From contig NZ_JAASRM010000001.1 of the NCBI RefSeq assembly GCF_011761565.1, positions 2,976,139 to 3,040,138 of the forward strand: a DNA stretch of 64,000 nucleotides. Reading direction: 5' to 3'. Each line of letters begins with the position of its first letter. Positions within the stretch are counted from its first letter, which is position 1. The notes under the pieces were generated by a model. It had not been told where the DNA came from and ran no database searches. It worked only from the letters and a program-made list of their open reading frames with translations. Shown here piece by piece: positions 27,510 to 34,426 of this stretch. The translations under genes and the position numbers were made by a program. This DNA is from Rhizomicrobium palustre (GTDB lineage Bacteria; Pseudomonadota; Alphaproteobacteria; Micropepsales; Micropepsaceae).

Positions 27510-28211
27510 CTATTCGGCGGCGGTGGCAAGCGCGCCGAAGCGGCGTTCGCGCTGATGGAAGGCAGCCACCGCGTTTTTCAGCTCCGCCTCGCCGAAATCG
27601 GGCCAGTGCATGGAGGTGAAGTAGAGTTCGGCATAGGCGCATTCCCAGAGCAGGAAATCGGAGAGCCGCTGCTCGCCGCTGGTGCGGATGAGAAGATCGA
27701 CATCCGGCGCGCCCAGCGCTGCCGACACAGCTTCGCGCGTCAGCCCGTCGCCTTCCACCGCGCGTTTAGCGGCCTCCAGGATCATGTCGCGGGCGGAGTA
27801 ATCCACCGCGACGCGCAAGTGTAAAAGATCGCCCCATTCCGTGGCGGCTTCGGCGCGCTCGATTTCCTGAATGAGGTCGGCGGGCAAACGATCGCGGCGG
27901 CCAATCACCGAAAGCTTGACGCCATCGCGCACCAGATCCTCGGTCTCCGCATCAAGGTAATGGCGGAAGAGGTCCATCAGCTCGCCCACTTCCTCCTCAG
28001 GGCGTTTCCAATTGTCGCTCGAAAACGCATAGACCGTCAGCGTGCTGATATTGGCGTCCGGGGCGGCGCGGACTACGCGGCGCAGGGCATCGATGCCCGC
28101 AACATGTCCCTTTTTGCGCGGCAGGCCGCGTTCACCGGCCCAGCGGCCATTGCCATCCATGATGACCGCGACATGAAGCTTTCCGTCTTGGGAATGTAGA
28201 GAGCTTGGCAT
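27510..28211 (-). CDS. uppS: Polyprenyl (undecaprenyl) diphosphate synthase, UppS family
   Basis: A 233-residue cis-prenyltransferase that would condense isopentenyl diphosphate onto farnesyl diphosphate. It has [12 protein letters not shown] (catalytic Asp, residue 19), [27 protein letters not shown] and the C-terminal [23 protein letters not shown] region (given here in parts: RTSGEQR and [13 protein letters not shown]). It is outside the frr-cdsA-dxr cluster that normally carries uppS in this class, so it may be a second copy. ATG 28211 is preferred over an upstream extension. Confidence 0.9.
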
Positions 28212-28286
28212 TGCAAAGTTCCTTCCGTCAAGAAAACTTGGCCGCAGAGAAAGTCTGGCCATGAAGAAAGAGGGTGGGGTAGTTCC

Positions 28287-28655
28287 TTAGCTGGGCAAAA
28301 CGCGCAGGCGCGCATTGCCAAAATCATCGCCCGCCGTTTCGGCGGCATCGCGTACAACCTGTTCCAAGACCGCGAGATATTCGAGAAACCTTTTGCGGCC
28401 AGAACGCGTGAGACGGCAAGTGGTTTGCGGGCGATTGTTCTCAAACGATTTGGTGATCTCCACCAAACCGGCCTCCTGCAGCACCTGCAGATGACGCGAA
28501 AGATTCCCATCCGTCAGCCCGCAGAGCTGTTTCAGATCGGCGAAGGCAAGACCCTTGGGGTGGGCGATCAGCGAAGAAAGCACGCCAAGCCGCGCCTTTT
28601 CATGCATCACGCGATCAAGCCCATCGAAGGCAAATGGCGCTTCAGTCTTCACCAT
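28287..28655 (-). CDS. Winged-helix transcriptional regulator
   Basis: A 122-residue ArsR/MarR-like regulator of the small winged-helix type. The helix-turn-helix is in LAFADLKQLCGLTDGNLSRHLQVLQEAGLV (quoted in part: LCGLTDGNLSRHLQVL), followed by a wing with RPQTTCRLTRSGRKRF. There is no sensor domain. Its start overlaps the end of the membrane protein gene by 14 bases, a common pairing in which the regulator and a membrane protein of unknown function are co-transcribed. Confidence 0.85.
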   Translation of the reverse strand: MVKTEAPFAFDGLDRVMHEKARLGVLSSLIAHPKGLAFADLKQLCGLTDGNLSRHLQVLQEAGLVEITKSFENNRPQTTCRLTRSGRKRFLEYLAVLEQVVRDAAETAGDDFGNARLRVLPS

Positions 28656-29253
28656 CGCTGCCTCCTGTCGTTAGATAAAGAATGGCGCCCATCAAGAGCT
28701 GGCCGAAGAAAAAGGGCAGGCCCATCATCATCGGCGAGAGCGCGTGGCTTTGGCTGGAAAAAAGCAGCGTCGCAAAGCCGGTGACGAAATAAAATCCGCC
28801 CACCCACATCATGCTGCGCGGCCAGTTATGCAGCGAGGCGAAGATGCCTAAGCTTACAAAAATCTGCCAAAGGCCAGGCACCATCCAGACATTCTCGCGC
28901 GAGAACTCCAAGAGCAGCACGGGCAAGAAAAAGCTTGCCGCGGCGGCGGGCAAAAACTGCTCCACCGCTTGATGAATCATCGCATCGGCAAGGCCTGAAT
29001 GCAGGCGGCGTGAGCGGCCGGTCATCTCGATGCCGATCAGCACGGCGCAAAACGCAGCCGTGGCGAGCCATTCGGTGATGAAGAGGGAAGGCGTTCCCGC
29101 AATGGGAAAAAGCGTTTGCAGGCTAGCGGTGACAAGGCCGATCACGCCTGTCAGCGTGATGGTGAAGGGGCCATAACCGCGAAAGGCGGTATGCGAGGCG
29201 ATGCGGTTGCGGATTTCGAGAATATCCGCCAAGGCCTTATCGACATCGCGCAT
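28642..29253 (-). CDS. Conserved multi-pass membrane protein, unknown function
   Basis: A 203-residue protein: a cytosolic N-terminus MRDVDKALADILEIRNRIA, then about six hydrophobic segments (around residues 30-52, 60-75, 98-113, 125-142, 147-163 and 175-195). No catalytic motif was recognised. It is translationally coupled to the downstream winged-helix regulator, which may control it or be controlled by it. Confidence 0.75.
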   Translation of the reverse strand: MRDVDKALADILEIRNRIASHTAFRGYGPFTITLTGVIGLVTASLQTLFPIAGTPSLFITEWLATAAFCAVLIGIEMTGRSRRLHSGLADAMIHQAVEQFLPAAAASFFLPVLLLEFSRENVWMVPGLWQIFVSLGIFASLHNWPRSMMWVGGFYFVTGFATLLFSSQSHALSPMMMGLPFFFGQLLMGAILYLTTGGSDGED

Positions 29254-29330
29254 GCGCTTCCCCAGAGGCTTACGTCACTTTGTATTGCAAAGTATACGGC
29301 AGCGTGGGGAAAGCGCAAGGGGGAGTTTGG

Positions 29331-29569
29331 CCCTCTCCCCAACGTGGGAGAGGACGCAAAATCTTGCGTTTAGCGGCGATCAAAATTTGAGGTGTCTGCG
29401 CATTTCGCCGCTAAGCGCTAGATTTTGCTGGTGAGGGGGAACCTGCCTCTGATCCCCTCACCTGAAAAATCATCGGAGTTAGCGACGCGCCACCGGCGTT
29501 CGTTCCGGCATTTCCTTGGCGCGACGCTAACCCCGTGATTTTTCTTCCTCTCCCGCAAAGGGGAGAGGG
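29331..29569. repeat. Nested inverted repeat, family D
   Basis: Outer hairpins at 29331-29353 (CCCTCTCCCC...GGGAGAGG) and 29547-29569 (CCTCTCCC...GGGGAGAGGG) face each other. An inner pair, TGAAAAATCA at 29463-29472 and TGATTTTTC at 29536-29544, is extended by AGTTAGCG and CGCTAAC. The unit fills most of the 321-base gap before hydG's end; the right-hand hairpin begins 5 bases after the hydG stop and could terminate its transcript. No gene was seen in the gap. Confidence 0.7.
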
Positions 29570-29574
29570 CACTC

Positions 29575-30993
29575 TCAATAATACAAATCCCGCTTGCCCT
29601 GTTCGATCTCAACCAGCCGCGCTTCGGTGACCTTGCGCAGCTTTTCGTTGGGGATTTCTTTCAGGTGTTCGGCGATGACCTTCTCGCCGATTTCCTTGGT
29701 CGCAGGCGAAGCAAAATCGGTCAGATATTCCTTCAGCGTCAGGATCGCATTGGGCTGGCAGAGGTTCTGGATTTCGCCCGATTTCGCCACCGCCATGAAG
29801 CGGTCTCCGGTGCGGCCATTGCGATAACACGCGGTGCAGAAGCTCGGCAGATGTCCGGCTTCGGATATATCGTGGATCACGCTGTCGAGCGGGCGTTCGT
29901 CGTTGACCTGGAACTGCACCGGCTGTTTCACGCCCTTCTCGTTTTCTTCGCAATAGCCGCCGACGCCGGTGCAGGAACCGCCGGACAGCTGCGAGATGCC
30001 AAGCTCCAAGCATTCATTGCGCAGATCGGCATCTTCGCGGGTGGAGATGATCATGCCGGTATAAGGCACGGCGAGGCGGATGATGGCGATCAGCTTCTTG
30101 AACTCGTCATCCGAAACGATATGCGGGAAGCTTTCGAGATTGATGCCTCCGGCGGGGCGGATGCGCGGCACGGAAATCGTATGCGGGCCGCAATTGAATT
30201 CGGCTTCCAGATGTTCGGCATGCTGCATCAGTGCCAGCATTTCGAATTTGTGGTCATAGAGGCCGAAGAGCACGCCCGCGCCATTATCATCGATGCCCGC
30301 CTGATTGGAGCGGTCAAAGGCGGTGGTGTGCCAATCGTAATCCTTCTTGGGGCCGCGCGGGTGCATCTTGGCATAGGTGCCGCGATGATAGGTTTCCTGG
30401 AAGAGGATATAGGTGCCGATCTCGGCATCTTTCAGCTTCTTATAATCCTCGACCGTGGTGGCAGCGATGTTGATATTGATGCGCCGGATATTCGCGTTTT
30501 TCGTTTCCACCGAATAGACCGCATCGATGGCATCCAGCACATAATCGATGGGGCAGTTTTCCGGGTCTTCGCCTGCTTCCATGGCAAGGCGCTTATGGCC
30601 CATATTAAGCAGCACCAAGGTTTCTTTTTTGATCTCGTCCATGGTGAGGCGGCGGCGGGAGAATTTATGCCCCGCGCCATAACCGCAATAAACGCAGCTA
30701 TTGACGCAGTAATCGCTGACATAAAGCGGCGCGAAGAGCACCAGGCGGCGGCCATAGATTTTCTGTTTGATATGCCGCGCGGTCTTATAGATTTCCTCGA
30801 CCAGCTCAGGGTCGTGCGTATTCAGCAGCACCGCCACTTCGGGCAGCGTCAAGCCGTGCGCGTCGGCGGCCTTCTTGATGATGGCTTCGACCATATCGCG
30901 CGAGGCGGCCCGCTTGCCTTCTTCCAAGGCAGCGTAAATGGCGGATTCGTTGATGAAACTGGCAACCTGCGACACGATACTCTCCCAAACCAT
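29575..30993 (-). CDS. hydG: [FeFe]-hydrogenase H-cluster radical SAM maturase HydG
   Basis: A 472-residue radical SAM tyrosine lyase. HydG cleaves tyrosine to p-cresol plus CO and cyanide, used to build the diiron subcluster of [FeFe]-hydrogenase. The radical SAM cluster motif CVNSCVYC (C96, C100, C103; CX3CX2C) is present. The C-terminus carries the auxiliary-cluster motif CX2CX22C (C386, C389, C412, in SFCTACYRNGRTGDRF through NLCQPN), which separates HydG from ThiH. A start at ATG 30993 gives the family's usual length; an upstream TTG at 31068 would add 25 atypical residues. No hydA, hydE or hydF occurs in the window. Confidence 0.9.
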   Translation of the reverse strand: MVWESIVSQVASFINESAIYAALEEGKRAASRDMVEAIIKKAADAHGLTLPEVAVLLNTHDPELVEEIYKTARHIKQKIYGRRLVLFAPLYVSDYCVNSCVYCGYGAGHKFSRRRLTMDEIKKETLVLLNMGHKRLAMEAGEDPENCPIDYVLDAIDAVYSVETKNANIRRININIAATTVEDYKKLKDAEIGTYILFQETYHRGTYAKMHPRGPKKDYDWHTTAFDRSNQAGIDDNGAGVLFGLYDHKFEMLALMQHAEHLEAEFNCGPHTISVPRIRPAGGINLESFPHIVSDDEFKKLIAIIRLAVPYTGMIISTREDADLRNECLELGISQLSGGSCTGVGGYCEENEKGVKQPVQFQVNDERPLDSVIHDISEAGHLPSFCTACYRNGRTGDRFMAVAKSGEIQNLCQPNAILTLKEYLTDFASPATKEIGEKVIAEHLKEIPNEKLRKVTEARLVEIEQGKRDLYY

Positions 30994-31128
30994 GGGCCTC
31001 TTGGTGAGGCGCTCTATGCTTGATGAGAAGTTAGGCCGGGCGCGCGCCGAAGTAATGCGCTTAATCAATAAGGCAGGGGCAAAATGGTCGCATGCGTAGG
31101 AGTGCGTATACTAGTATGTGCCACGCAT

Positions 31129-31887
31129 CTATTCGGCGTAGATCATTTTGACGCTCATGCCGCCATCAATGGTAATATTCTGACCGGTCATGAAACCTGC
31201 CTTTTCCGCGAGAAACTGGCAGGCTTCCGCAATGTCCTGCGGTGTCCCGACGCGCCCTACGGGGTGCTGCGCGCGGTCGGCGCGCGAATGTTTCGGCTTC
31301 ACGGCTTGTGACGATTTCTTCCAATCGCTCACTTCGATCCAGCCGGGGCTGATCGCGTTCACCCGGATGCGATAGGGCGCCAGGCTGATCGCGAGCCCAT
31401 GCGTCAGCGCGACAATCCCGCCCTTGGAGGCGGTGTAGCCTTCGGTGTCTGGCTCCGACATGAAAGCGCGGGTAGAGGCGATGTTGATGATCGCCCCGCC
31501 TTCACCGCGCTTGGCCATCACGCGGGCGGCGGCTTGGCTGGCAAAAAAGGCACCGCCGAGATTGGTATTGATCACTTTTTGAAATTCGGCGGGCGTCAGC
31601 TTCAGTACGTCCTTGCGGATCACGATGCCCGCATTGTTGATCAGCACATCCGGCACGCCGAGTTCTTTCACCGTGCGCGCCATCCAGCCTGAAATGTCTT
31701 TCGGCTTTGCGACATCGCCGCGCTGAAAAAGACCCTGCGCTTTACGCGCGCCGATCCCGGCCAGCACCTCACGTCCGGCTTCATTGTCCGGGTCGATGAA
31801 AGAAACCCCGTAGCCAGCTTCGGCGAAGTGCCAAGCCAGCGCCCGGCCAATGCCTTGCCCCGCACCGGTGATGGCAACGATTTTCAT
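31129..31887 (-). CDS. SDR-family oxidoreductase
   Basis: A 252-residue short-chain dehydrogenase/reductase. It has the cofactor motif TGAGQGIG, the acidic SFIDPDNEAG after strand 2 (suggesting NAD rather than NADP), NNAGIV, the catalytic Ser in IASTRAF and the YTASK tyrosine-lysine pair. The C-terminus GQNITIDGGMSVKMIYAE is typical of classical SDRs. Substrate unknown. It is 31 bases downstream of the sedolisin gene and 135 bases upstream of hydG, all on one strand. Confidence 0.88.
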   Translation of the reverse strand: MKIVAITGAGQGIGRALAWHFAEAGYGVSFIDPDNEAGREVLAGIGARKAQGLFQRGDVAKPKDISGWMARTVKELGVPDVLINNAGIVIRKDVLKLTPAEFQKVINTNLGGAFFASQAAARVMAKRGEGGAIINIASTRAFMSEPDTEGYTASKGGIVALTHGLAISLAPYRIRVNAISPGWIEVSDWKKSSQAVKPKHSRADRAQHPVGRVGTPQDIAEACQFLAEKAGFMTGQNITIDGGMSVKMIYAE

Positions 31888-33484: not shown

Positions 33485-34426
33485 TCAGCCGATCCAAGTG
33501 GAGAGAATCAGCGCGGCGGCAATCAGTGCGCCGGTATCGCGATTGGCGCGGAACAATTTCAGACATTTCGCGCTGTCATCGATATCGAGCTGGCGCACCT
33601 GCCACATCAGATGCCCGCCCGCGATCAGCATCAGGATCACATAGATCGAGCCGATATGTTCGGTGAAGCCCGCGGCGAGGACCAGGGTGAAGGCGGCGAT
33701 GTAGAAGCCGAAAATCCAATCCTTGGAGCGTTCGGCAAAAAGCCGCGCAGTGGATTTGACGCCGATCAGCGCATCGTCATCCTTATCCTGATGGGCATAG
33801 ATGGTGTCATAGCCCAGCGTCCAGCAGATCAGGCCTGCGTAAAGCATCAGCGCGGCGCTATCGATGGTGCCCGTCTCAGCAGCAAAGCCGACAATGGCGC
33901 CCCAATTGAAAGTGAGGCCCAGCCAGGCCTGCGGCCACCAGGTGATGCGCTTCATGAAAGGATAGGCGGCCACCAGCAACAAAGAGGAGGCACCCAGAAT
34001 GATCGCGGTCCAATTGCGCAAGAGCAAAAGGATCACCAGTCCAATCAGGCAGAGGGCGATGGTGAAGACGATAGCCTGTTTCACGCTGACCGCGCCTGAA
34101 GGAATGGGCCGCCCGCGCGTCCTCGCCACGCTGGCATCGAAATCGCGGTCGACAATATCGTTGAAGGCGCAGCCCGCGCCGCGCATCACCACCGAGCCGA
34201 TCCCCATCAGAGCAACAAGGGCGATGTCTTTCAGCGTGCCAAAGGGGCGGCTTTCGGCGGCGGCGCCCAAGGCAAGCCCGAATACGCAAGGCCAATAGAG
34301 CAGCCATGTACCAATCGGCCGGTCCAGCCGCATCAGCCGGAGGTAAGGCTGCCATTTGGGCGGGGCGCGATCCACCAGCCGTGCGGCAACGGCATCTGCT
34401 GGAATGGCGGCGGTATTTTCTGTCAT
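33485..34426 (-). CDS. ubiA: 4-hydroxybenzoate polyprenyltransferase
   Basis: Attaches the polyprenyl tail to 4-hydroxybenzoate in ubiquinone synthesis. The 313-residue protein has about eight to nine membrane segments and both aspartate-rich motifs: NDIVDRDFDASVARTRGRP (first) and AHQDKDDDALIGVKSTAR (second). It also has the family's RLDRPIGTWLLYWPCVFGL near residue 35. It is divergent from a lipoprotein gene across 41 bases. Confidence 0.94.
   Translation of the reverse strand: MTENTAAIPADAVAARLVDRAPPKWQPYLRLMRLDRPIGTWLLYWPCVFGLALGAAAESRPFGTLKDIALVALMGIGSVVMRGAGCAFNDIVDRDFDASVARTRGRPIPSGAVSVKQAIVFTIALCLIGLVILLLLRNWTAIILGASSLLLVAAYPFMKRITWWPQAWLGLTFNWGAIVGFAAETGTIDSAALMLYAGLICWTLGYDTIYAHQDKDDDALIGVKSTARLFAERSKDWIFGFYIAAFTLVLAAGFTEHIGSIYVILMLIAGGHLMWQVRQLDIDDSAKCLKLFRANRDTGALIAAALILSTWIG

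Follow-up and report, generated by a model that had tools for sequence, protein, structure and literature searches.

A hydG gene in Rhizomicrobium palustre with its [FeFe]-hydrogenase partners at a second chromosomal place

HydG, which acts together with HydE and HydF, produces CO and cyanide from tyrosine. In the window analysed here (the whole 64,000-nucleotide, or 64-kb, stretch from R. palustre), a hydG gene stands between a dehydrogenase gene and a repeat. The preliminary description of this DNA called a lone hydG unexpected and offered two explanations, namely that the [FeFe]-hydrogenase genes lie elsewhere, as would fit a facultative fermenter, or that this HydG serves another purpose. 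We asked whether the gene encodes HydG, whether its partners are present in the genome, and whether its separate position is shared by relatives. The features of the locus are as follows.

27510..28262, minus strand: uppS-type isoprenyl transferase, shared-locus marker on one side (profile and locus comparison)
28287..29253, minus strand: 203-aa protein with no Pfam or NCBIfam match and winged-helix regulator, shared-locus markers (profile and locus comparison)
29330..29570, no strand: imperfect inverted repeat directly downstream of hydG (repeat search)
29575..30993, minus strand: hydG, radical SAM maturase of the [FeFe]-hydrogenase H-cluster, 472 aa from ATG (TIGR03955, motifs, PDB 4wcx, tree)
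31079..31094, minus strand: CATGCGACYATTTTG block lying between hydG and the stop codon of the SDR gene (conserved in 6 of 6 aligned upstream regions)
31129..31887, minus strand: SDR-family dehydrogenase upstream of hydG (profile match, locus comparison)
33485..34426, minus strand: UbiA prenyltransferase, shared-locus marker on the other side (locus comparison)

Identity of hydG and the whereabouts of its partners

The hydG open reading frame lies on the minus strand with its stop end at 29575. Read from the ATG at 30993 it contains 472 codons, and the mechanically called frame, which is open up to a TTG start at 31068, contains 497; the ATG is a candidate start only. Numbered from the ATG, the product carries CX3CX2C at C96/C100/C103 (pattern start at residue 121 of the 497-residue frame) and CX2CX22C at C386/C389/C412 (pattern start at residue 411 of the same frame). 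It scores 656.7 bits against the NCBIfam HydG model TIGR03955, for which the cut-off is 312.15, and aligns from position 6 to position 468 of the 470-position profile, retaining every ligand. Its best solved relative is PDB 4wcx (634.3 bits over residues 30-497), deposited under the name 'Biotin and thiamin synthesis associated'. PDB 4rtb, deposited as 'HydG protein', reaches 362.2 bits and the solved ThiH 7pd1 reaches 192.8 bits; both cysteine motifs are preserved in the alignments to 4wcx and 4rtb. Identity to the HydG of four further members of the genus is 86-90%. Judged from its sequence, the gene is real and its product is HydG, and the identity, the length of 472 residues, and the motif cysteines given in the preliminary description are all borne out.

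The R. palustre genome is a single contig of 4,264,312 bases (99.66% complete). A whole-genome profile search found two HydA (296.7 and 282 bits; cut-off 22.1), HydE (343.7 bits; cut-off 254.6), and HydF (497.7 bits; cut-off 325.55), and no second HydG over its cut-off was found in the genome. Two hydA, hydE, aspA, and hydF form one cluster at genome positions 1,930,034-1,938,843, approximately 1.07 Mb from the hydG match at 3,005,722-3,007,110. The gene order within the cluster is a GltD-like gene with a NuoF-type iron-sulphur domain, HydA1, NuoE-type, NuoF-type, HydA2, HydE, AspA-type, and HydF. Both HydA exceed the TIGR02512 cut-off of 405.95 (498.4 and 482.8 bits) and fall under the cut-off of 765 of the NADH-dependent group A6 model, one just (762.1) and the other clearly (714.4). 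The L1, L2, and L3 motifs are found in both HydA, CX3CX2C in HydE, and a P-loop with a C-terminal CXH..CXXC in HydF. The genome also encodes pyruvate:ferredoxin oxidoreductase (PFOR; 1693.5 bits, cut-off 911.35).

Within the 64-kb window, the claim that no hydrogenase, HydE, or HydF lies near hydG holds: there was no match to HydA, none to HydF among the 10 matches listed, and the HydE model matched only HydG itself, under the cut-off. The further claim, that such a lone hydG is unexpected, fails. The preliminary description had itself named hydA, hydE, and hydF elsewhere in the genome as the finding that would make the gene ordinary; since the whole-genome search found all three, hydG is ordinary, and it looks alone because of its place, far from the partner cluster. 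The first of the two explanations offered matches the genome (two hydA, hydE, hydF, and PFOR), and the second is without support.

HydA2 of the hyd cluster (L016:10909-13041, where L016 denotes the 20 kb hyd-cluster stretch of the R. palustre genome) reads TSCSPGW where HydA1 reads TSCCPAW, with Ser in place of the usual Cys, a position that serves in proton relay. TSCSPGW occurs in 17 of 19 scanned loci, L016 included, all chosen for hydrogenase matches; L134 and L135, which are centred on HydA1-type matches, do not contain it. TSCSPGW is a trait of this HydA type and not damage.

Among 60 genus genomes taken from a larger group, HydA and HydG exceed their cut-offs in the same ten. The ten carriers are R. 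palustre (G000), G007, G010, G019, G026, G033, G063, G067, G073, and G082; in the 50 genus genomes without HydA, the HydG model gave no match at E 0.001. In a wider draw of 61 genomes, R. palustre included, HydG exceeds its cut-off in seven and HydF in eight. In the eighth HydF genome, G038, HydG is split between two contigs; each piece scores under the cut-off, and one is a neighbour of HydE and HydF. Since the genomes in both sets are related, neither set of counts represents independent events. A second, partial HydG match (119.5 bits) lies at a contig end in G067 (contig 84, bases 3-401), a genome that also has a full clustered copy.

Alternative readings of the gene

The ThiH model TIGR02351 does match the hydG product, at 283.9 bits, but this score lies under the ThiH cut-off of 380, whereas that for HydG lies far above its own. 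A maximum-likelihood tree of 57 rows places 32 HydG-like rows, R. palustre HydG included, opposite 25 others across one branch with support of 100/100, recovered in 100% of 200 bootstrap trees, with a warning in the output of long branches on both sides of this split. Five sequences that are fragments or have broken frames (L040, L067, L070, L095, and L097) were left out of the tree and L023 was kept. On the ThiH side, all four scanned rows of the 25 exceed the ThiH cut-off. The model scores and the C-terminal cysteines give the same division: 32 of the 34 HydG-side rows that were extracted carry CX2CX22C, the exceptions being L040, which is cut off, and L068, whereas none of 27 ThiH-side rows does, two of these being partial. 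The placement among ThiH that the preliminary description had considered able to overturn its call was not found, and the tree and model scores together refute a ThiH identity; that the gene is a misnamed ThiH has a negligible probability. The exception L068 is a HydG-like protein of Pontiella sulfatireligans (L068:6001-7434; 430.6 bits, over the HydG cut-off) that lacks the CX2CX22C spacing and sits on a long branch in the tree, with no HydE, HydF, or HydA seen in its flanks; it may be a HydG put to a different use, or its frame may be damaged.

Could a genuine HydG serve some purpose other than hydrogenase maturation, or in addition to it, such as the release of free CO or cyanide, or the provision, instead of ThiH, of the dehydroglycine needed for thiamine? 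In favour of such a role, the HydG model also detects ThiH elsewhere, yet its only matches in R. palustre are HydG and HydE, and no separate ThiH was seen. ThiO is also under its cut-off (best 118.7 versus 250.8 bits); the best ThiO-like oxidase, at 747 kb (G000:C1:746796-747998), may do the job of ThiO despite its score. Against such a role, HydG keeps the second-cluster cysteines that no ThiH-side row has in this pattern, and the HydG model finds nothing at E 0.001 in any of the 50 HydA-free genus genomes, a distribution unlike that expected for a thiamine gene. We consider a further or different purpose very improbable, and we reject an orphan HydG with a new role, because the genome contains two hydA, hydE, and hydF, and because, of the 60 genus genomes, the ten with HydG are also the ten with HydA. 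That hydG is an inactive or degenerating remnant of a hyd operon might be suggested by its position apart from the operon and beside a repeat, but its frame is open over nearly the whole profile with all ligands kept, it remains closely similar to the HydG of other genus members, and it is the sole HydG over the cut-off in a genome in which HydA, HydE, and HydF exceed theirs. Decay can be discounted almost entirely. By far the best explanation, and one that we hold with near certainty, is that this is an ordinary hydG with its partners elsewhere on the chromosome, its product predicted to build the H-cluster of the two [FeFe]-hydrogenases with the distant HydE and HydF.

Position across relatives and upstream sequence

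We found that hydG lies apart from hydA in eight of the ten genus carriers, approximately 1.07 Mb away in R. palustre and on another contig in the rest; these assemblies are drafts, in which a separate contig is no proof of distance. The hydG and hydA matches of the remaining two carriers, G067 and G073, are approximately 2.5 kb apart on one contig. No other hyd genes were seen in the hydG flanks read of the split carriers, and seven of these eight share the R. palustre hydG neighbours as far as their contigs allow. In G000, G007, G010, G033, and G063, a single contig holds UbiA on one side of hydG and the 203-aa protein, regulator, and uppS on the other. The two sides of the locus lie on two contigs in G026, and G019 shows SDR and hydG only, on a 3.3 kb contig. 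The eighth split carrier, G082, has hydG beside feoB, and its hydG positions agree with those of locus L062; this locus, from a related genome, has hydG followed by feoB (L062:5977-9746), a ferrous iron transporter gene and a sensible neighbour for an iron-demanding maturase.

SDR is kept in four of the five single-contig loci and is cut down to a remnant of 20 codons in G007. Because hydG is nevertheless intact in G007, SDR is probably a mere neighbour, and a functional link between SDR and hydG is not supported. The repeat that the preliminary description placed beside hydG exists: its arms, at 29330-29378 and 29522-29570 (49 nt each), are 78% complementary and enclose smaller inverted repeats. 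The surroundings of UbiA were compared in five genomes that have no hydG there (G021, G027, G067, G073, and G082), and none of them shows a clean empty site; no other locus marker lies near UbiA within the roughly 9-12 kb beyond it in G021, G067, and G082, or before the contigs of G027 and G073 end within approximately 1 kb. G081 lacks a HydG match but has the 203-aa gene, regulator, and uppS; these lie on a 4 kb contig whose end falls short of the hydG site.

HydE, HydF, or HydA is found in the flank of 24 of 32 HydG loci (L038-L069), a biased sample fetched by patterns from R. palustre HydG, without the fragment L070. The eight loci lacking a flank partner, an upper figure given that this lineage's proteins served as queries (E 1e-15) and some flanks are short, are L038-L040, L061, and L062 of this alphaproteobacterial group together with L064, L066, and L068. 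For flank comparisons, only the best-scoring of overlapping matches was used. A cursory search of the literature, covering hydrogenase and fermentation in Rhizomicrobium as well as dispersed hyd genes, found nothing on a split hydG position. The separate place of hydG, kept across several species, is mildly unusual, as is its combination with a conserved upstream block and with an FNR-like box that is conserved at the hyd cluster but not at hydG.

The CATGCGACYATTTTG block and a TTACTTC downstream of it are both kept in all six aligned hydG upstream regions, and the block is a possible promoter or operator of hydG that may serve as a regulator site. Its 16-base pattern does not recur in the 64-kb window, L016, or L017 when up to two mismatches are allowed; at three, the window yields two further matches and L016 yields one, and the 12-base core has two other matches with one mismatch in the window. 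No block common to the hydG promoter and the hydA cluster was found with up to two mismatches, and the three-mismatch matches in hydA stretches (the one in L016 and two in the G010 stretch) are chance-like.

For FNR-like boxes we used the pattern TTGAN6TCAA with up to one mismatch. None was found in approximately 400 bases upstream of hydG in six genomes, or in approximately 500-700 bases upstream of the GltD-like gene in four. A TTGATCTTT-type box with one mismatch precedes the NuoE-type gene in five of six hyd-cluster regions (R. palustre, G007, G033, G010, and G019), and the sixth, in G026, is cut off by the contig end before the site. The conserved box before this gene is TTGATCTTTNRCAA, one mismatch from the pattern; in R. 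palustre the box before this NuoE-to-HydF part of the cluster is TTGATCTTTCGCAA, at L016:9261-9274, with counterparts in four other genus members. At one mismatch, with both strands counted, the 64-kb window and the 20 kb of L016 have 24 such boxes each, and therefore only the conserved place speaks for the box, which is putative and a lead rather than a result. With two mismatches, a site appears upstream of hydG in four of six genomes (R. palustre, G007, G033, and G063), which is too weak to use.

A speculative and rather unlikely scenario is that, in an ancestor of this lineage, hydG moved out of the hyd cluster and was retained at a housekeeping locus with its own promoter, so that production of CO and cyanide is regulated separately from the hydrogenases. 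An FNR-type oxygen sensor would then control the hyd cluster, and some other factor, one that reads CATGCGACYATTTTG, would control hydG.

H-cluster assembly and comparison with known systems

From established knowledge of the family, HydG would cleave tyrosine with SAM using its CX3CX2C cluster, and CO and cyanide on iron would be handed over through the C-terminal CX2CX22C cluster. HydG, HydE, and HydF would then build the H-cluster of both HydA, the distant hyd cluster being the probable client of HydG. The NuoE/NuoF-type neighbours suggest that both hydrogenases probably exchange electrons with NAD(P)H in anaerobic fermentation; the host presumably ferments to H2. Rhizomicrobium includes a facultatively anaerobic fermenter.

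R. palustre has a complete [FeFe]-hydrogenase gene set, split between two chromosomal places, and nothing observed departs from the known mechanism of HydG. A maturase gene alone in 64 kb need not be an orphan, its partners lying on the same chromosome. An alphaproteobacterial lineage with a complete set and a separate hydG in several species offers a test case for maturation regulated apart from the hydrogenases.

Compared with the alphaproteobacterial maturases described in PMC4967309, R. palustre has the same three maturases together with HydA and NuoEF-type genes; that study covers Rhodospirillales and Pleomorphomonas, and a word search of its main text gave no Rhizomicrobium. An association of aspA with hyd operons has been reported and tied to the nitrogen of the bridging ligand, as a proposed supply (PMC11736057). 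As in the aspA-bearing operons described there, an AspA-type gene lies between hydE and hydF in R. palustre, whereas hydG lies outside the cluster. Compared with the HydG family itself (TIGR03955; 4wcx and 4rtb), the R. palustre protein has the same full length and both cluster motifs, with hydA, hydE, and hydF in the same genome, and the sole difference is the position of its gene outside the hyd cluster.
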